The notes beneath the pieces are model-generated. The model made no database searches. It was given only the letters and a program-made list of their open reading frames with translations, and was not told the origin of the DNA. DNA of 64,000 bases. It comes from Pseudogemmobacter lacusdianii (lineage in GTDB: Bacteria; Pseudomonadota; Alphaproteobacteria; Rhodobacterales; Rhodobacteraceae). The position numbers and the translations under genes are program-made. Each line of letters opens with the position of its first letter. Position 1 is the stretch's first letter. Of the stretch, positions 21,310-62,735 are shown one piece after another. The DNA lies in contig NZ_JAVDBT010000010.1 in NCBI RefSeq assembly GCF_030848395.1, positions 62,001-126,000 on the forward strand. Direction: 5' to 3'.

Positions 21310-21520
21310 AGGCCGACCTTTCTGTTGGCGGCAGGATGGGCGGCGGCGGCGAGAAGGTCAAGATTGCGCGCCTTGGGGCGGCCGCTTCAGGATTGCAGAA
21401 AATTTGAACGAGTTTTCTTCTGGCAGGCCTTGGGTGGCAAGGAATTCTTAAACAGCCGCGCGCTATCTCTGGCCATGCGGGGTAATCGTTCCCGTGCCGC
21501 AGCCAAGGGGGCCGGAACCC

Positions 21521-21802
21521 ATGTCGCCACTTGTCTTCACGCTGCCGGAACGGATTTCCGTGACCGAAGAGAATGATTTGCTGCCCTTTCTGCGGGACAA
21601 TGCCGATACCGCGGTTGAAATTGCGGCGGGCCAGCTGCGCCGCTTGGACGCGCCTTTGCTGCAATGCCTGCTGGCGGCGGCATTCGACCGCAAGCGCAGG
21701 GGCGTGGCCTTTGATCTCACCGGGCTTTCTGCCGATCACGCCGCCCAACTTGCCGCTTTTGGGGTCGGGGCGGATTCACTCAGCAATCTGGGGACCCTAT
21801 GA
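21521..21802 (+). CDS. STAS-domain protein at the head of the chemotaxis operon
   Basis: A 93 aa single STAS domain, the fold of anti-sigma-factor antagonists and NTP-binding regulators. It shows the alternation of strands and helices of the family (AVEIAAGQLRRLDAPLLQCL, then GVAFDLTGLSADHAAQLAAFG), with Asp29 rather than a clear phosphorylatable Ser in the usual DSS position. The ATG at 21521 follows AAGGGGG (21505-21511). A GTG at 21494 is possible. Its stop overlaps the cheY start by four bases (ATGA), tying it to the che operon. Similar STAS proteins head che operons in other alphaproteobacteria, but their role is unknown. Confidence 0.75.
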   Translation: MSPLVFTLPERISVTEENDLLPFLRDNADTAVEIAAGQLRRLDAPLLQCLLAAAFDRKRRGVAFDLTGLSADHAAQLAAFGVGADSLSNLGTL

Positions 21803-22173
21803 CGATCAAAGTGCTCGCAATCGATGACAGTCGCACGATCCGCAATCTGGTCCGCAAGGCGATGGAGGATGCAGGCTTTAGCTGCACCACAGCGGATGAT
21901 GGCGTGCAAGGGGTTGAAAGATTTGCCGAAATCGCTCCGGACGTGGTGATCACCGACATCAACATGCCCCGGATGGACGGCTTTGGCGTGATCGATGCCA
22001 TTCGCAGCGGGGTGGCGCATCGCAGCGTGCCGATCCTCGTTCTCACCACGGAATCGGCCGATGAGCTGAAGGCGCGGGCGCGCTCGGCCGGGGCCACCGG
22101 TTGGATCGTCAAGCCCTTTGAGGACACCGCGATCGTATCTGTTGTCCGCCGCGTCACCGGCGCGCGCGTCTGA
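21799..22173 (+). CDS. cheY: CheY-type chemotaxis response regulator (first copy)
   Basis: Single receiver domain, 124 aa, that carries the phosphoryl signal from CheA to the flagellar motor or acts as a phosphate sink. All receiver residues are present: Asp9-Asp10 in AIDDSRTIR, the phosphorylation site Asp53 in VVITDINMPRMDG, the Thr in VLTTESADE and the Lys in WIVKPFED. It starts inside the STAS gene stop, and cheA begins 12 bases after its stop. The KPFEDTAIVSVVRR ending is typical of alphaproteobacterial CheY1. A second CheY is encoded at 25892-26278; which of them binds FliM is not visible. Confidence 0.88.
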   Translation: MTIKVLAIDDSRTIRNLVRKAMEDAGFSCTTADDGVQGVERFAEIAPDVVITDINMPRMDGFGVIDAIRSGVAHRSVPILVLTTESADELKARARSAGATGWIVKPFEDTAIVSVVRRVTGARV

Positions 22174-22185
22174 GGGGGCGTTTTC

Positions 22186-24420
22186 ATGGCAACAATGAAC
22201 TCTATCCGCGACACATTCTTTGAGGAATGCGAAGAGCTCTTGGAAGCACTGGCCGAGGGGCTGTCGCTGATCAACGAAGGGCTCCACGATGCCGAGACGG
22301 TGAATGCGGTCTTTCGCGCCGTGCATTCGGTCAAAGGCGGGGCTGGCGCCTTTGCCTTGGATGGGCTCGTGGCCTTTGCGCATCGATTTGAAACCGTGCT
22401 GGACGGTTTACGCGCCGACCGCATCGAGCTGACGGCCGAGGTTGTGCATGTGCTTTTGCGCTCGGCCGATCATCTGGCCGATCAGGTGGAAGCGGCCCGG
22501 GATGGGACAGAGATCGCCCCTGACACTACGGAAGGGTTCATTGCCAATCTGGATGCTGTGCTGGGGGGGCCCCCGGTGACGGATCCGGTGGCTGACGCGG
22601 ATCCCTGTTTTGGGTTTTCTGCTATGCCGTTGGATCTGGGCTTGGATTTGCCTTTGCCTTTGCCAGACGGGCTTACTGTGCCGTCAGAGCCCAAGCCCGA
22701 CGGTCCTGCCCAATCGGCCGAGCTGCTTAGCCCCTCTAACACAGCTTCGCGCGGGTACCGCATCCACTTCCGTCCCTACCCTACGCTTTACGCAAATGGC
22801 CATGACCCGGCCCTGATCCTTTCCGCTCTGTCAGATCTGGGCCAGATGGAGGTCGCTTTGGACCTTTCGGCTCTGCCCGACTGGACCGAATTCGACCCCG
22901 CGGCCAGCTACTTGGCTTGGTCCGTCGTGCTGACCAGCGATGAGCATGAAACGGCCGTGCAGGAGATTTTTGAATTCGTCGACGGGTTCTGCGATCTGGA
23001 AATCACCCCCATCACGGAGCCTGAACCGATGATGCAACCCTCTGATCTTACGACGGAAGTTCCGCATCTTTCCGAGAAAACGACCCTCTTGGATGCCACC
23101 GCTGCGGCTATAACTTCCGCCCTGCAAGATACCATAAACCCGCCCAGCGCAACCCGCGCCCCGGCCGAAGCCGGCCTGCGCAAACGTGAGGCCAAACTGT
23201 CCGAAGAGGAAACCGGAGATGGCCGCGGCCCCAAGCCAACGCTGCGGGTCGAACTCGAACGGGTGGACCGGCTCATCAATGCGGTTGGTGAGTTGATCAT
23301 CAACCAAGCGATGATCGAACAAAGCATCTCTATTCTCTCGCTGCCGGCGGATGCAGAAGTGATCACCCATGTCGAAGATTACCGCCTGCTCGCGCGGGAC
23401 ATCCAAGAAGCGGTGATGGCGATCCGCGCCCAGCCCGTGAAGCCCTTGTTCCAACGCATGTCACGTATCGTGCGCGAAGCGGCTGATGCCACTGGCAAAC
23501 AAGCGCGGCTGATCTCCTTGGGCGAAGCGACTGAGGTTGATAAGACGGTGATTGAGCGGCTGGCCGACCCGCTCACCCATATGATCCGCAACGCTGTGGA
23601 TCACGGGTTGGAGAATGTTGAGCTGCGTCAATCCGCAGGCAAAGACCCCGAAGGCACGATCCGATTGCAAGCCGCGCATCGCTCGGGCTCGGTCGTGATC
23701 ACCGTGCGCGATGACGGCGCTGGGCTGAACCGTCCGAAGATATTGGAGAAAGCCATCGCCCGGGGCCTTGTCAGCGCAGAGGATGAGCTGACCGATGCAG
23801 AGATTGATAATCTCTTGTTCTTGCCAGGTTTTTCAACAGCTGACCGGATATCAAATCTTTCGGGCCGGGGCGTGGGCTTGGACGTGGTGCGTAATGCGGT
23901 GACAGCCCTTGGCGGGCGGGTCTCGATCACCTCCACCCCGAGCGAAGGGACGGAGTTCACCATTACCCTTCCGCTGACCTTGGCGGTGATGGATGGCATG
24001 GTGATCTCGGTTGCAGGCCACACGATGGTGGTGCCCATCACCTCGGTGATTGAGACGATCCGCCCCGGCCCCGAAGATCTGCACCAACTTGGCACCAGCG
24101 AGAGCCTGCTGTCGATGCGCGGCCGCTTTATTCCGATGATCGATGTTGCCGCCTCGCTTGGCTTCCCGGGCCGTGACCCAAACCAGCCGCCGCTGCTGCT
24201 TTTGGTTGAGACCGACAGTCAAACGCAATGCGCCTTGGTCGTCGATGCGGTGCATGACCAGCGGCAAGTTGTGATCAAGGGGTTGGAATCAAATTACGGC
24301 ACAATCCCCGGCGTCTCGGCGGCCACAGTTTTGGGCGATGGGCAGATCGCCTTGATTTTGGATGCTGACGCTTTGACTTCGAACCGCGCTGGCGCCCCAG
24401 TGCGCGCCACAGCCGCCTGA
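22186..24420 (+). CDS. cheA: Chemotaxis histidine kinase CheA
   Basis: Cytoplasmic sensor kinase, 744 aa, that phosphorylates CheY and CheB from receptor input. The domains in order are: Hpt/P1 (about 1-110) with the phosphorylated His47 in FRAVHSVKGGAGAF; a P2-like response-regulator docking region (about 185-280, GYRIHFRPYPTLYANGHDP); dimerisation/P3 starting at TLRVELERVDRLINAVGELI; ATPase/P4 with VDHGLEN (N box), DDGAGL and GRGVGLDVV; and a CheW-like P5 to the end. Length and order are normal. It lies between cheY and cheW in a tightly packed operon. The linker at about 280-345 is rich in Thr, Pro and Glu and is probably disordered. Confidence 0.93.
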   Translation: MATMNSIRDTFFEECEELLEALAEGLSLINEGLHDAETVNAVFRAVHSVKGGAGAFALDGLVAFAHRFETVLDGLRADRIELTAEVVHVLLRSADHLADQVEAARDGTEIAPDTTEGFIANLDAVLGGPPVTDPVADADPCFGFSAMPLDLGLDLPLPLPDGLTVPSEPKPDGPAQSAELLSPSNTASRGYRIHFRPYPTLYANGHDPALILSALSDLGQMEVALDLSALPDWTEFDPAASYLAWSVVLTSDEHETAVQEIFEFVDGFCDLEITPITEPEPMMQPSDLTTEVPHLSEKTTLLDATAAAITSALQDTINPPSATRAPAEAGLRKREAKLSEEETGDGRGPKPTLRVELERVDRLINAVGELIINQAMIEQSISILSLPADAEVITHVEDYRLLARDIQEAVMAIRAQPVKPLFQRMSRIVREAADATGKQARLISLGEATEVDKTVIERLADPLTHMIRNAVDHGLENVELRQSAGKDPEGTIRLQAAHRSGSVVITVRDDGAGLNRPKILEKAIARGLVSAEDELTDAEIDNLLFLPGFSTADRISNLSGRGVGLDVVRNAVTALGGRVSITSTPSEGTEFTITLPLTLAVMDGMVISVAGHTMVVPITSVIETIRPGPEDLHQLGTSESLLSMRGRFIPMIDVAASLGFPGRDPNQPPLLLLVETDSQTQCALVVDAVHDQRQVVIKGLESNYGTIPGVSAATVLGDGQIALILDADALTSNRAGAPVRATAA

Positions 24421-24438: not shown

Positions 24439-24903
24439 ATGCATGCCCAAGAAAATCGCAGTGCCACGGATGTGGAGTTCGTCACCTTTCAAGCCGGAGG
24501 ACAAAGCTTTTCGCTCGATATCACCCATGTGCGTGAGATCCGCCGCTGGACCGCCGTCACCCCCCTCCCTCATGCACCACGAGAGGTCCTTGGCGTGATG
24601 AACCTGCGTGGATCGGTGATCCCGATCTACGATCTCTCGGCCCGCTTTGGTCTTGGCAACACCGAGGAAAGCCCCCGTAATGTGGTTGTGGTTGCGATGA
24701 TCGACAACCAAACTGTGGGCCTTTTGGTCGAAGCCGTCTCGGAGATCCTTTCGGTCGCGCGCGATCGCATCCAAGACACCCCCGACATCCGCTCGGAATC
24801 CACAAAACAAAGCATCACCGGCGTGATCCCGATCGATGAGGGGATGACTAGGGTGATCGACTTGGCTGCGGTGATCCAAGCGCGCAGCAAAGCAGCGGCA
24901 TGA
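24439..24903 (+). CDS. cheW: Chemotaxis adaptor CheW
   Basis: A 154 aa coupling protein that links receptors to CheA in the signalling array. It is a single CheW domain: VEFVTFQAGGQSFSLDITHVREI is the first strand pair (residues 12-34, split here as one segment of the domain). It is followed by the receptor-contact region VMNLRGSVIPIYDL and the core VAMIDNQTVGLLVEAVSEIL. GAAAGGAA lies 10 bases before the ATG. It overlaps cheR by four bases. No second CheW is present in the window. Confidence 0.92.
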   Translation: MHAQENRSATDVEFVTFQAGGQSFSLDITHVREIRRWTAVTPLPHAPREVLGVMNLRGSVIPIYDLSARFGLGNTEESPRNVVVVAMIDNQTVGLLVEAVSEILSVARDRIQDTPDIRSESTKQSITGVIPIDEGMTRVIDLAAVIQARSKAAA

Positions 24904-25847
24904 TGGCACCGGATCACGCTGTTTCCGCTACCGCGCTGGCCGCCCCGGCTCCACACAATCTGCCCCTTGCTGCCGAGCCGAGATCCAGCACCGGCAAATC
25001 CCGCCCCCCGCCCCCTGGTGTTGACCCAAGTGGTCTTAGTTTTACGCAACGCGATTTCGAACGGATCGCCGCCTTTGCCTATCGTGAGTTCGGATTATCC
25101 TTGCATTCCTCCAAACGCGATCTGGTCTATTCTCGTCTTCTCAAGCGCTTACACGCTTTAGGCATGCACCGATTTCATGACTATTGCGATCTTTTGGAAA
25201 GTGCCGATGGGCGGGGCGAGCATGACCTCGTCGTTTCGGCCCTGACCACGAATGTGACGCATTTCTTCCGCGAGGGTCACCATTTTGACCTTTTGGCCAA
25301 CCTGGTTGTAAAGCCGCGTCTGGCAGAACTTAAATCGGGTGCCCGGCTGCGGATTTGGTCGGCTGGTTGCTCCTCGGGAATGGAGCCCTATTCGATTGCC
25401 ATGACATTACTCGACGTCTTACCCGAGGCCGCTCAGCAAAACATCCGGATCCTTGCCACGGATGTTGACCCCGCCATTTTGGCGCGCGCGCGGGCGGGGC
25501 TTTTCAGCGCTGATGAGGTAAAACCTATCCCAGACAGGATGAAAAGCTGGGGGGTGCAGCAGGCCGAGGGCGGCCAGCAACAGATTGCCAGCAAAGTACA
25601 GAAATTGGTGCGATTTGGTGAGTTGAACCTCATGCAGGACTGGCCGCTGAGAGGGCCACTTGATGCGATTTTCTGCCGCAATGTCGCGATCTATTTCGAC
25701 AAGCAAACCCAAGCCCGACTTTGGCAGCGTTTTGCCAGCCTTTTGGCGCCTGGGGGCATGCTCTTCATCGGACATTCCGAAAGACTGAGCGGTCCGGCGG
25801 AGGCTGGTTTCTCATCGGTTGGAATAACCGCCTATTGCAAACTGTAA
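24900..25847 (+). CDS. cheR: Chemotaxis protein methyltransferase CheR
   Basis: SAM-dependent methyltransferase, 315 aa, that methylates glutamates of chemoreceptors for adaptation. It has a low-complexity N-terminal extension (about 1-50, rich in Ala and Pro), then the CheR alpha-helical domain (FERIAAFAYREFGLSLHSSK) and the SAM domain with RIWSAGCSSGMEPYSIAMTL, ATDVDPAILARARAG and IFCRNVAIYFDKQ. The Arg-containing FFREGHHFD segment is the receptor-contact region. Its start ATG overlaps the cheW stop (the second ATG at 24903 is equally possible). There is no C-terminal TPR. The length fits the family once the extension is allowed for. Confidence 0.9.
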   Translation: MMAPDHAVSATALAAPAPHNLPLAAEPRSSTGKSRPPPPGVDPSGLSFTQRDFERIAAFAYREFGLSLHSSKRDLVYSRLLKRLHALGMHRFHDYCDLLESADGRGEHDLVVSALTTNVTHFFREGHHFDLLANLVVKPRLAELKSGARLRIWSAGCSSGMEPYSIAMTLLDVLPEAAQQNIRILATDVDPAILARARAGLFSADEVKPIPDRMKSWGVQQAEGGQQQIASKVQKLVRFGELNLMQDWPLRGPLDAIFCRNVAIYFDKQTQARLWQRFASLLAPGGMLFIGHSERLSGPAEAGFSSVGITAYCKL

Positions 25848-25891: not shown

Positions 25892-26278
25892 ATGAGCTTG
25901 AAAGAATCTTTGCGGGTGATGGTGGTGGACGACATGTCGGTCAGCCGCGCGCTGATCTCGCAGTCGCTGGAGGAGATTGGCATCAAGCATGTTGCGACCG
26001 AGGCTGACAGCACAGCGGCTTTGGGTAAGCTGGCGGCCAATCCGGTGCATCTGGTGATTTCCGATATGAACATGCCCGGTATGTCGGGGTTAGATCTGCT
26101 GGGTGCGATCCGGCAAAATCGCACCACCCAAAAGATGGGTTTCATCCTGATCACAGGCACGCCCACGCCAGAGATTCTGCAAAAAGGACAACAGCTTGGC
26201 CTTAACAACTTGATCCGGAAACCCTTTACCACCGCCACCGTCAAAGCCAGCATCGAGCGCGTGGTCGGCCCGCTATGA
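25892..26278 (+). CDS. cheY: CheY-type response regulator (second copy)
   Basis: Single receiver domain, 128 aa. The acidic pair is Asp13-Asp14 in VMVVDDMSVSRAL, the phosphorylation site is Asp58 in LVISDMNMPGMSG, the Thr is in ILITGTPTPE and the Lys in LIRKPFTTATV. An excellent AAGGAGG lies just upstream of the ATG at 25892. The longer open frame from 25721 is inside cheR. The MSGLDLL and ITGTPTPEILQKGQQLGLNN features differ from the first CheY, which agrees with the two-CheY scheme of alphaproteobacteria (one motor-binding, one phosphate sink). Its stop overlaps the next gene by four bases. Confidence 0.88.
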   Translation: MSLKESLRVMVVDDMSVSRALISQSLEEIGIKHVATEADSTAALGKLAANPVHLVISDMNMPGMSGLDLLGAIRQNRTTQKMGFILITGTPTPEILQKGQQLGLNNLIRKPFTTATVKASIERVVGPL

Positions 26279-26631
26279 GCACGCCCCCTGCCGCCTTGGA
26301 TGTACTCCTCAGCCTTACCGCCACTGAGATCAGTCATTGCCGAAAGCTTGTGCAGCGGCTTGAAGATGCCATCCATGCCTTGGTCGATCGTGGCGAAATT
26401 CAAATGACCTCGGGTCCGGCGCGCGAATTGCAAGCGATCGATCGCCTGGATCAACGGCTGCATGATCTGACCAGATGGACCGAGGCTTTGGCGCTCGCGA
26501 CGCGTGATTGCCCCATCGCGATGAGCGCGGCCGATCTGGCGCCTGTGCTTTCACTGGCCGAATTGCGCCACGCTCTGACGGGTGCCGAGACGGCACCTGC
26601 ATTTCCCCCCAGCGCAGCCGAGGTTTTTTAA
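26275..26631 (+). CDS. Uncharacterised helical protein of the che operon (possible CheY phosphatase)
   Basis: A 118 aa protein with no family I can name with confidence. It is predicted mostly helical: a first helix at about 15-40 (TEISHCRKLVQRLEDAIHAL), a second at about 48-75 and a short third near 95. The second helix contains D56-R-L-D-Q60, a DXXXQ spacing inside an amphipathic helix (ELQAIDRLDQRLHDLTRW). In CheZ and in Sinorhizobium CheT the Asp and Gln of such a motif remove phosphate from CheY. The gene is locked into the operon between cheY (four-base overlap) and cheB. No CheZ, CheC, CheX or FliY is otherwise present here. The phosphatase role is inference. Confidence 0.6.
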   Translation: MSTPPAALDVLLSLTATEISHCRKLVQRLEDAIHALVDRGEIQMTSGPARELQAIDRLDQRLHDLTRWTEALALATRDCPIAMSAADLAPVLSLAELRHALTGAETAPAFPPSAAEVF

Positions 26632-26766
26632 CACAAAGCTGAATTGATGGGCCGCAATCTTCACTCACCCGAAGACGACCAGCCGTTGGACCACTGCTAC
26701 GCTTCGCCCTTTGCTTTCGCTGAACTCACCTTTCCAAAGCTCCTTTCGGAAAAAGGCCAACAAGCC

Positions 26767-27792
26767 ATGACCGAGATCGCCACCGTCATTGTGACCTCAA
26801 GCCCGCTTTTACTGTCACGGCTCGGCCGGGCCTTGGGCCGCTTGCCGCGGGTCAAGCTCTGCGGTCAAGCAGGCGATTTGTCGGGTGCCTATATCCGGGT
26901 CGAACAGGCCGAACCGAAAATCGTGCTTTTAGGCTCGGAAATGACGCGCCACCCCGACTTCCCCGGCCTTCTGGCAATGTTCCGAGTGATGGGGATCACT
27001 TGGCTGCGCATTGGCAATGAGGCAGCGCGCCCCGGCGCATCCGAGGCGGTCCTAAATCCCGAAGATAGCCCAGAGGCGATGCTGACATCTATCTGTAACG
27101 CACTGGCAAAAAACGATGAATCAGGATCGACAATGCCTTTGGTGCCGCGTGCACCCTTGGCTCTGGGGCGTGGTAGACCTGACCGTTTCATCCTGATCGG
27201 CTCTTCGACAGGCGGCATTGACGCATTGTTGCGCGTGCTTTCAGTTTTCCCTGCCGACTGCCCGCCTACGGCAATCGTTCAGCACACCGGCTCCTCCTTT
27301 TCGGACAGTCTGATCCGCCTCTTGGACCGCAGTTGCGCCGCACAGGTCAGGCCGGCGCAACCAGGCCTGCCGCTTGTTCCAGGCCAGGTCGTGGTCGGCG
27401 CCGGATGTGGCGCGCATATGCTTTTAAACCCAGGTCCGCCGCCCAAGGTTCAGCTTGCGGCAGGCGAGCCAGTCTCGGGTCATTTGCCATCGGTGGATGA
27501 GCTTTTTCGCTCGGCCGTGCCGATCGCCACGCGGGTCACAGCGGCTTTGCTGACCGGAATGGGGCGAGACGGCGCGCAAGGCATGCTAGAGCTGCGCCGC
27601 GCCGGCGCTTTTACGATTGCGCAAGATGAAGCCAGTTCAGTGGTTTACGGCATGCCGCGCGCGGCGTGGGAGCTGGGGGCTGTTGAGAGCCGCCTCCCCC
27701 TTATGCAGATCGGGCCAGAACTTCTGAACCGATGCACCGGCCGAGCCATGTCAGTCGTCGGTGATCGCAAAGCGATGGGTGCCACCAGATGA
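26767..27792 (+). CDS. cheB: CheB methylesterase with a degenerate receiver domain
   Basis: Receptor methylesterase/deamidase, 341 aa. The C-terminal catalytic domain is intact: Ser147 in ILIGSSTGGIDAL, His173 in AIVQHTGSSF and Asp268 in LLTGMGRDGAQGM. The N-terminal domain has the length and strand pattern of a receiver but lacks the working residues. The acidic pair is T10-S11 in VIVTSSPLLL, the phosphorylated Asp is Gly56 in KIVLLGSEMT, and the usual KP is N97-P98. CheA therefore probably cannot activate it by phosphorylation. The start chosen is the ATG at 26767 after AAAAAGG; the frame from 26644 adds non-homologous sequence. It overlaps cheD by four bases. Confidence 0.85.
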   Translation: MTEIATVIVTSSPLLLSRLGRALGRLPRVKLCGQAGDLSGAYIRVEQAEPKIVLLGSEMTRHPDFPGLLAMFRVMGITWLRIGNEAARPGASEAVLNPEDSPEAMLTSICNALAKNDESGSTMPLVPRAPLALGRGRPDRFILIGSSTGGIDALLRVLSVFPADCPPTAIVQHTGSSFSDSLIRLLDRSCAAQVRPAQPGLPLVPGQVVVGAGCGAHMLLNPGPPPKVQLAAGEPVSGHLPSVDELFRSAVPIATRVTAALLTGMGRDGAQGMLELRRAGAFTIAQDEASSVVYGMPRAAWELGAVESRLPLMQIGPELLNRCTGRAMSVVGDRKAMGATR

Positions 27793-28337
27793 TGCATTTC
27801 GCGGCCAAGACGATTGTGATCGTTCAAGGTGAATTTCGTGTATCGACCCGGCCCGATGAGCAGCTTCAAACCATTCTCGGCTCTTGTGTCGCAGCCTGCA
27901 TCTGGGATCCGGAAGCGGCAGTGGGAGGAATGAACCATTTTCTACTGGCCCAATCACAAAGCAACTCTGCCAACCCTTTGCAAGAACGAGACAATCGCTA
28001 CGGCGTCCACGCGATGGAGATGCTGATCAACGCTTTGTTGCGCTTGGGTGCGCGCCGCGACGCACTGCGGGGCAAGCTTTTTGGCGGCGCGAAGATATCG
28101 GCACATCTGCGCGATATTGGCAGCTCGAACGCCGACTTTGCCCGCAACTTTTTACGCACTGAAAGCATCCCCTGCCTTGCGGAAAGCCTTGGTGGCACTT
28201 TGGCCCGCCGAGTGACCTTTCACCCCGCAACCGGCCGAGCTCGGCAATTGCTGATCCCCGGAACGCAACTCGATGAAACGCCGCTGCGCACACCGCCGCC
28301 GCGGCCAACGCCGCCGACACAAGTTGAGCTTTTTTGA
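27789..28337 (+). CDS. cheD: Chemoreceptor glutamine deamidase CheD
   Basis: A 182 aa deamidase that converts receptor glutamines to glutamates and can bind CheC/CheY partners in other bacteria. The catalytic Cys33 is in TILGSCVAACIWD, the His50 in GGMNHFLL, and the conserved RYGVHAMEMLINALL and GKLFGGAKI segments follow. The C-terminal 25 residues are Pro-rich (TPLRTPPPRPTPPTQ) and probably disordered. The start overlaps the cheB stop; a second in-frame ATG is at 27792. It is the last gene of the operon and is followed by a strong hairpin. Confidence 0.9.
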   Translation: MMHFAAKTIVIVQGEFRVSTRPDEQLQTILGSCVAACIWDPEAAVGGMNHFLLAQSQSNSANPLQERDNRYGVHAMEMLINALLRLGARRDALRGKLFGGAKISAHLRDIGSSNADFARNFLRTESIPCLAESLGGTLARRVTFHPATGRARQLLIPGTQLDETPLRTPPPRPTPPTQVELF

Positions 28338-61216: not shown

Positions 61217-62735
61217 GTGCCGCTGCCTCTTGCGTCGTTTCGGGGTTGGGCGCTTCGGTGTCGGATGTGCCCATGATCAGCCGCACCACAGCGGTGTCGG
61301 TGATGGCCTCGCCGGTCAAAGTGCCCGCCAGCCTGCCCTGCCGCATGACCAGCACGCGGTCTGAAAGGCCCAAGATTTCCGGCATATCCGAGGAGATCAC
61401 GATCACGCTGCGGCCCTCTCGGGCCAGACGGTCGATGAAATGGTAAATCTGGCTCTTGGTGCCGATGTCGATGCCACGGGTCGGCTCATCAATAATCACC
61501 ACATCGGGCGCGGGCAGCATGGTCTTGGCCAAAAGGAGCTTTTGCTGGTTCCCGCCCGAGAGATTGCCAGCGGCCATCGCGCGCGAGGGGGCGCGGATGT
61601 CGAAATCGCTGATTGCTTGGGTGAGCGCCGCCTCTTCCTTGGCGCGGCTGATCAAAGGCGTCCCAAAGCGCGGCAGCGTCGAGAGCGTCAGGTTTTCGCG
61701 CAGGCCCTTGCCCAGCAAAAGCCCGCGCTCCTTGCGGTCTTCGGTCAGATAGGCCAGCCCGGCGCGCTCAGCCTCGATCAGCGAGCGAATCTGGATCTCT
61801 TTGCCGTGCCGCGCGATGCGGCCTGAGTGCGGGCGCAGGCCCACCAGCCCTTCGGCAAGTTCACTCCGGCCAGCACCGACAAGGCCTGAGATGCCCAAGA
61901 CCTCACCCCGGCGCAAGGTGAAGGAGATATCTTGCACCAAGGGCGGGACGGAAAAGCCTTGCACTTCAAGCACAACCTCGTCGCTGGGCGTGCGCCGAGG
62001 CGGGTAGATGTCGCTTAGATCGCGGCCGACCATGGCGGTGGCCATGCCATCCTCGCTGAGCTCGCCGCGCAGGGCCTGCCGCACCACAGTGCCATCGCGC
62101 AGCACGGTGATCCGGTCGGCGAGATGGCTGATCTCTTCCAAACGGTGCGAGGTATAAAGGAGTGCCACACCAGCGGAGCGCAGCCGGTCGATCTGACGAA
62201 ACAGGATATCCACCTCGCGGTGGGTCAGCACGGCCGAGGGTTCATCCATGATCAAAACGCGGGCTTGCCGGGACAAAGCCTTTGCGATTTCAACCATTTG
62301 CCGGTCCGAGACTTTCAGATCGCGGATCCTTGCATCGGGATCAACGCCGCATTCCAACTGCTCAAGCAAAGCCTTTGCCGCCAGCCTTTGCGCGCGGTGA
62401 TTGAGGAAGAAGCCCCCTTTCTCGCGGCCCAGAAAGATATTGTCGGCAACGGTCAAATCTTGGGCGAGGTTGAACTCTTGATGGATCACCACCACGCCCT
62501 GCGCCTCGGCCTCAGGGCCCGAGCGGAAGGGCGCGGGCTGGCCTTCCAGCAAGACTTGGCCCTCACTCGGCGCCAGATAACCGCCGAGGATTTTCATCAT
62601 CGTCGATTTGCCAGCGCCATTTTCACCAATCAAAGCATGCACTTCGCCGGGATGCAGCGCAAAATTGACGCCGTGCAGGATTTCGATCGGGCCAAAGCTT
62701 TTGCGGATATCGCGCAGCTCTAGCAGGGCGGTCAT
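61209..62735 (-). CDS. Sugar ABC importer ATPase (RbsA-like, tandem domains)
   Basis: Cytoplasmic ATPase with two fused ABC domains, 508 aa. The first domain has Walker A IGENGAGKSTMMK, a signature region LKVSDRQMVEIAKAL and Walker B VLIMDEPSAVLT. The second has a degenerate Walker A (ISGLVGAGRSELAEG), the signature LSGGNQQKLLLAKTM and Walker B VVIIDEPTRGID, the asymmetry normal for RbsA/MglA. The start ATG at 62733-62735 overlaps the dehydrogenase stop (ATGA); the frame upstream to 62777 is within that gene. It couples to the permease encoded next. Confidence 0.9.
   Translation of the reverse strand: MTALLELRDIRKSFGPIEILHGVNFALHPGEVHALIGENGAGKSTMMKILGGYLAPSEGQVLLEGQPAPFRSGPEAEAQGVVVIHQEFNLAQDLTVADNIFLGREKGGFFLNHRAQRLAAKALLEQLECGVDPDARIRDLKVSDRQMVEIAKALSRQARVLIMDEPSAVLTHREVDILFRQIDRLRSAGVALLYTSHRLEEISHLADRITVLRDGTVVRQALRGELSEDGMATAMVGRDLSDIYPPRRTPSDEVVLEVQGFSVPPLVQDISFTLRRGEVLGISGLVGAGRSELAEGLVGLRPHSGRIARHGKEIQIRSLIEAERAGLAYLTEDRKERGLLLGKGLRENLTLSTLPRFGTPLISRAKEEAALTQAISDFDIRAPSRAMAAGNLSGGNQQKLLLAKTMLPAPDVVIIDEPTRGIDIGTKSQIYHFIDRLAREGRSVIVISSDMPEILGLSDRVLVMRQGRLAGTLTGEAITDTAVVRLIMGTSDTEAPNPETTQEAAAHV

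Follow-up and report, generated by a model that had tools for sequence, protein, structure and literature searches.

A Divergent CheT-Like Gene, Probably Encoding a CheY~P Phosphatase, in the che Operon of Pseudogemmobacter lacusdianii

Introduction

Bacteria of the family Rhodobacteraceae, a name used here in a broad sense after the named loci, are abundant in aquatic habitats. CheT, known from plant-associated bacteria such as Sinorhizobium meliloti and other Rhizobiaceae, helps to switch off the swimming signal; CheZ is a helical hairpin, and the phosphatases CheC and CheX would fill the same role. A review of A. fabrum describes CheT as having a DXXXQ motif and an AlphaFold structure highly similar to that of CheZ, as being active on only one of two CheYs, and, in S. 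meliloti, as forming a complex with CheR (PMC12654446). In the rhizobia, CheY1 acts as a phosphate sink (PMC8429497), and the signal is carried by CheY2, with CheS assisting.

For the Rhodobacterales the record is thin. The same review loosely lists Rhodobacter sphaeroides with "CheD, CheS, and CheT," with no sequence evidence in the passage concerned (PMC12654446); the available part of a 2025 study of Rhodobacterales flagella makes no mention of CheT (PMC12363192); and a literature search, its coverage mostly outside subscription journals, found no paper describing CheT in this order. A sequence-only reading of DNA from Pseudogemmobacter lacusdianii had proposed a 118-amino-acid protein of a che operon as a candidate new CheY phosphatase. 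Here we compare that locus with the described systems.

Organization of the che Operon

The window, the 64,000-nucleotide stretch of DNA analyzed (positions 62,001 to 126,000 of contig NZ_JAVDBT010000010.1, assembly GCF_030848395.1), encodes on its forward strand a che operon that includes cheD and a pair of cheY genes, in the order small STAS-domain ORF, cheY1, cheA, cheW, cheR, cheY2, cheT-like gene, cheB, and cheD. The cheT-like gene (26275..26631, ATG to TAA) encodes 118 amino acids; its start codon and the stop codon of cheY2 share the letters ATGA (26275-26278), a 4-bp overlap. The ORF that had been picked out as overlapping a cheY gene and preceding cheB is real. Codons 26431..26454 encode Q53-A-I-D56-R-L-D-Q60, the QxxDxxxQ signature, within which D56-R-L-D-Q60 occupies 26440-26454. 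The window protein has no match above cut-off in Pfam; used as a query against the genome, it returned a single match, the window locus itself.

The flanking genes are readily recognized. Both response regulators consist of a single receiver domain: cheY1 (21799..22173; Response_reg, 6.1e-26) and cheY2 (25892..26278; Response_reg, 2e-21), the latter with the DD pair, the acceptor D, and the K intact (D13, D14, D58, and K110 are invariant among 18 sequences). Between them lie cheA (22186..24420; Hpt, H-kinase_dim, HATPase_c, and CheW domains), cheW (24439..24903; PF01584, 1.6e-36), and cheR (24900..25847; PF01739, 6.8e-65). Downstream are cheB (26767..27792; PF01339, 1.2e-48), which begins with ATG but has a possible alternative TTG start at 26644, and cheD (27789..28337; PF03975, 2.6e-24), whose product ends in Q-V-E-L-F.

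The small ORF at the head of the operon (21494..21802) overlaps cheY1 by 4 bp, occupies the slot of rhizobial cheS, and has a STAS-domain match slightly under threshold (PF13466, E 2.7e-6, 27.9 bits against a cut-off of 29.2); in Ruegeria TM1040 the same slot before cheY1 is annotated STAS. BLAST found no match between this ORF and the S. meliloti ORF in the cheS position, and the two align poorly (15 of 1000 shuffles were equally good). The ORF is CheS-like by position and domain only.

Conservation of the QxxDxxxQ Signature

DxxxQ appears in 24% of shuffles of the window protein, so that its presence in a single sequence carries little weight, and a spurious ORF or a chance motif had to be considered. 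Orthologs were gathered by their position after cheY2, independently of the motif, because the gene evolves too fast for single-sequence search: the window protein matched 10 of 13 genomes within the genus and 13 of 295 family genomes (its own included), a first contig scan with it as query gave no match, and tblastn of one family member against a plasmid collection gave none. CheB, in comparison, was matched in 141 of 290 family genomes. Sixty regions were taken from genus and family genomes, 20 via matches to the window protein and 40 from among the best CheB matches, a sample that leans to closer relatives; genome G015, whose weak match to the window protein contains a stop, was left out. 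Forty-nine regions contain cheY2, and the 11 without a cheY2 above threshold were set aside, among them one (L072) with no che gene nearby.

A fixed rule, requiring 80 codons or more and a start no farther than about 25 bases from the cheY2 stop codon, yielded an ORF at 48 of the 49 cheY2 loci; at the remaining one (L060) a motif-bearing ORF begins 82 bases downstream. The 48 position-selected ORFs and the window protein form a 49-sequence alignment (A1) with a mean identity of about 23%, in which no column other than Q53, D56, and Q60 is invariant; conservation reaches 90% at the start Met and at L94. DxxxQ is thus found in 49 of 49 family members versus 36% of shuffled members, and the conservation of D56 and Q60 in syntenic orthologs, which had been suggested as a check on the phosphatase proposal, holds throughout. 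Removal of relatives at least 60% identical leaves 46 sequences with a mean pairwise identity of 23%, all of which retain the three residues.

A second set of 80 named loci (the best 80 of 445 relatives of the conserved CheY2) shares genomes with the first, and the two are not independent. ORFs were called in 78 of these loci, and 77 of the 78 carry QxxDxxxQ; the other, at L188, is a reading frame of cheB. With L169, where no ORF was called and the motif lies on a truncated contig, the gene is present in 78 of the 80 loci. No CheT-like gene was found within 700 bases after cheY2 at L188 (Rhodosalinus halophilus) or L190 (uncultured Rhodobacteraceae); in these two the gene is missing beside an intact cheY2, which suggests that it is dispensable or has moved there. 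In the alignment of the window protein with the 77 named sequences (A3), Q53, D56, Q60, and the start Met are invariant. Judged from these alignments, the invariance of the three residues among the putative orthologs is far beyond chance. With position and motif kept in 78 of 80 named loci, and with the significant match of the family profile to CheT described below, the chance or spurious reading is refuted by conservation, and we give it practically no weight.

Close relatives in plasmid records (20 listed of 82) are annotated "hypothetical protein" in 18 cases and lack annotation in two. The CheT module represented by this gene is widespread in the Rhodobacteraceae, a spread so far unrecognized. 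One of the named records (JAFKDC010000024.1, locus L183) is titled Enemella evansiae, an actinobacterium; it holds a typical Rhodobacteraceae che operon, and its name looks wrong.

Relationship to Rhizobial CheT

The S. meliloti CheT was found directly after cheD, in a record reached by tblastn of cheD, and scores 226.5 bits on the NCBI CheT model NF047973 (cut-off 200). Searched against 582 ORFs (from Sinorhizobium, Shinella, Rhizobium, and Escherichia coli regions and the window), the A1 profile matches S. meliloti CheT with 53 bits (E ~1e-15) and two other CheTs with 53 and 58 bits; the best unrelated ORF scores 8.0 bits. The profile alignment places Q54, D57, and Q61 of CheT on Q53, D56, and Q60, in register. 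On the strength of these comparisons it is close to certain that the window ORF is homologous to CheT, as a divergent relative. The sequence-only reading of a candidate new phosphatase, in which CheT was named just as an analogy, gives way here to a distant homolog of CheT and not a new class. Its remark that the rest of the sequence resembles nothing familiar is correct for single-sequence comparison (BLAST against S. meliloti CheT gives E 0.45, not significant) but not for profiles.

Global alignment with S. meliloti CheT yields a z-score of 3.9, with 2 of 1000 shuffles equally good. The two proteins are 25-29% identical in pairwise comparison and similar in length (124 amino acids for CheT, 118 for the window protein); they share profile homology over most of the protein, the signature at the same place (54/57/61 and 53/56/60), and a C-terminal Phe. 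Both operons encode two CheYs and CheD and have a small ORF ahead of cheY1, but the S. meliloti order is cheY2-cheD-cheT and the window gene instead follows cheY2.

In the reverse direction, NF047973 matches 26 of the 49 family members at E ≤ 1 (best 1.1e-9) and leaves 23 unmatched at that level; the best score seen is 37.6 bits against the cut-off of 200. It also matched three of seven further named members. The window protein gave no match to the model and lies below the equivalog cut-off of 200 bits, so it is filed as CheT-like and not as that equivalog.

Across 289 class genomes the A1 profile found matches in seven (four of the same family), so the sampled breadth is limited. The three motif genes outside the family lie directly after cheD (two), which is the place of cheT in S. 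meliloti, or after cheW (one); a single one of them also matches NF047973 (E 0.0014). A search with NF047973 over 240 class genomes gave no match, controls included, and is uninformative on absence.

The finding is therefore mostly domesticated: the protein is a divergent CheT-like protein and not a new kind, and the interest left lies in the extended signature, its spread, and the dead CheB receiver treated below. Only three residues stay fixed in so divergent a family, and Q53 thereby becomes a testable candidate for the active site in addition to the reported DXXXQ motif.

Predicted Structure

The AlphaFold2 model from 78 sequences (mean pLDDT 83.2, pTM 0.70) is a helical hairpin, with predicted helices at residues 8-39 and 47-75 (long) and 85-91 and 95-102 (short) and a tail of low confidence. 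D56-R-L-D-Q60 lies in the second predicted helix, as had been read from the sequence. Relative to the hydrophobic direction of helix 2, calculated with the motif residues left out, Q53, D56, and Q60 point at -157, 143, and -177 degrees; they thus appear to be turned from the core, as expected of a catalytic surface that faces CheY. The hydrophobic moment per residue is 0.59 for helix 2 versus 1.24 for helix 1, and with so weak a moment the support for an exposed motif is only moderate.

Foldseek returned no match at E ≤ 0.001, and CheZ was absent among the best 50 of 144 matches listed; histidine-kinase hairpins appeared at E values of at least 1.6 and were not counted as evidence. Foldseek and VIA-align alike gave generic hairpins, with no CheZ among the matches listed. 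Matches from a sequence search of the PDB were coiled-coil-like or other helical proteins (best E 2.3e-4, a keratin) and were put down to composition.

Comparison with CheZ, CheC, and CheX

Searches for CheZ (PF04344), CheC (PF04509), and CheX (PF13690) detected none of them in the 3.78 Mb genome; the same searches matched control genomes. Their absence, noted earlier for the window, extends in these searches to the genome. The window protein itself matches neither the CheC nor the CheX Pfam family. The further step from that absence, that a signal terminator is otherwise missing, was too strong: rhizobial CheY1 is described as a phosphate sink (PMC8429497), and the operon has two matching cheY genes.

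Homology to CheZ was rejected by profile comparison. In an hhalign comparison with eight CheZ sequences the probability was 0.4%, and 3 of 20 column-shuffled controls did as well or better. CheZ and the window protein have in common the DxxxQ motif (D143 and Q147 in E. coli), a helical hairpin (predicted for the window protein), and a C-terminal Phe. They differ in length (214 versus 118 amino acids), and E. coli CheZ lacks the Q three residues before the D, having D140 there and Q139 one further. The resemblance to CheZ is that of motif and general shape only. Where the sequence-only reading had suggested a search for a four-helix-bundle homodimer with the motif facing CheY, the prediction gives a hairpin with the motif turned from the hydrophobic side.

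Function and Substrate

The sequence comparisons and the analogy with rhizobia suggest that the window protein is probably a CheY~P phosphatase within a rhizobial-type two-CheY module. The simplest reading would be the same module as in rhizobia, with a CheT-like phosphatase draining one CheY~P. The best explanation as a whole, which we regard as likely, is a divergent CheT-like hairpin protein that acts on CheY1~P and has a docking tail. The protein is predicted to fold as a helical hairpin, which would probably dimerize into a four-helix bundle. By analogy with CheZ and CheT, Q60 would place the water that attacks the phospho-aspartate of CheY, and D56, perhaps with Q53, would hold the complex with CheY together. 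A gene named CheT-like gives the Rhodobacteraceae a probable signal terminator.

An adaptor without phosphatase activity, whose invariant residues would serve as a surface for binding a partner such as CheA, deserves mention, since helical hairpins are common and the case for catalysis is built on homology and on the analogy of the motif; that homology, however, is to CheT, a reported phosphatase, and we hold the adaptor to be very improbable.

The most likely substrate of the proposed phosphatase is the phosphate-sink regulator in its phosphorylated form, CheY1~P, since each CheY of the operon pairs with its own S. meliloti counterpart, CheY1 or CheY2, and S. meliloti CheT reportedly acts on just one of the two. 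Identity to the S. meliloti counterpart is 56% for the window CheY1 and 45% for the window CheY2, each counterpart being the best match in that locus, and the cheY1 product is likely the phosphate-sink CheY and the predicted substrate. The CheT-like protein would then empty the phosphate sink and help to terminate the signal.

The position of the gene raises another possibility, that the CheT-like phosphatase acts directly on the motor regulator CheY2~P in the manner of CheZ. Translational coupling with cheY2 is probable, a 4-bp overlap being present in 34 of the 48 ORFs from the family and in 36 of the 78 from named loci (the choice of start favored overlap). The adjacency itself cannot be counted as evidence, because the loci were collected via the ORF after cheY2; nor is it fixed, since in S. 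meliloti cheD separates cheY2 from cheT. Rhizobial CheT, moreover, reportedly acts on a single CheY, and this is reported to be CheY1. Direct action on CheY2~P is possible but doubtful.

CheR may be involved as well. By analogy with S. meliloti, whose CheT is described in the review as forming a complex with CheR (PMC12654446), CheR is a possible second partner of the CheT-like protein. The main job of the protein might even be to link signaling to methylation through CheR, phosphatase activity being weak or secondary, and a docking-peptide-like tail, which CheD has as well, would suit such a role. The strictly invariant residues besides the start, however, are those of the QxxDxxxQ set only, a pattern that speaks for a function in catalysis or in contact with CheY, and we think the linking role unlikely as the main one.

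CheB without a Phosphorylation Site

Pfam detects no Response_reg domain in the window CheB, though its N-terminus is receiver-like, and T, S, and G stand at the three Asp columns. Among 53 CheBs (from 52 named Rhodobacteraceae loci and the window), none has the full Asp pocket and two lack the stretch; the second acidic residue is Asp in none, and the acceptor Asp is kept in three. The CheBs of S. meliloti and E. coli keep all three residues of the pocket. These substitutions suggest that the operon-linked CheB of the Rhodobacteraceae is probably no longer phosphorylatable, and an operon with a dead CheB receiver offers a test case for adaptation without CheB phosphorylation. A more ambitious proposal, that the CheT-like protein binds CheY~P as well as CheR and in this way provides the main phosphorylation feedback on receptor methylation and so combines signal termination with an adaptation feedback replacing CheB~P, is in our judgment quite improbable.

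C-Terminal Tails

The window CheT-like protein ends in A-A-E-V-F (26617-26631) and the window CheD tail (Q-V-E-L-F) is encoded at 28320-28337. In the named loci a C-terminal F is found in 41 of 46 CheD and 51 of 77 CheT-like proteins, and in none or one for each of six other Che proteins. The ends of CheD and CheT-like proteins tend toward -[DE]-hydrophobic-F or -TLF, and in other alphaproteobacteria CheD frequently terminates in VELF, IELF, or VDLF, followed by no more than one further residue. The two tails are possibly a shared docking signal for the same partner, and in the preferred reading the flexible tail -[DE]-hydrophobic-F of the CheT-like protein would probably be a docking peptide.

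A copy of the receptor pentapeptide was considered as the origin of the CheT and CheD tails. Of 57 receptor ORFs in the loci, 52 end in aromatic-or-His, x, x, aromatic-or-His, mostly WxxF, and the S. meliloti CheT end, D-F-E-A-F, fits this receptor pattern; the idea is weakened by 45 of the 77 CheT-like tails, which have I, P, or V at the first position of the pattern. In a search for the receptor signaling domain, L230 (G000:C47:76926-77384) was the only chemoreceptor match in that genome; it ends in Q-W-E-D-F.
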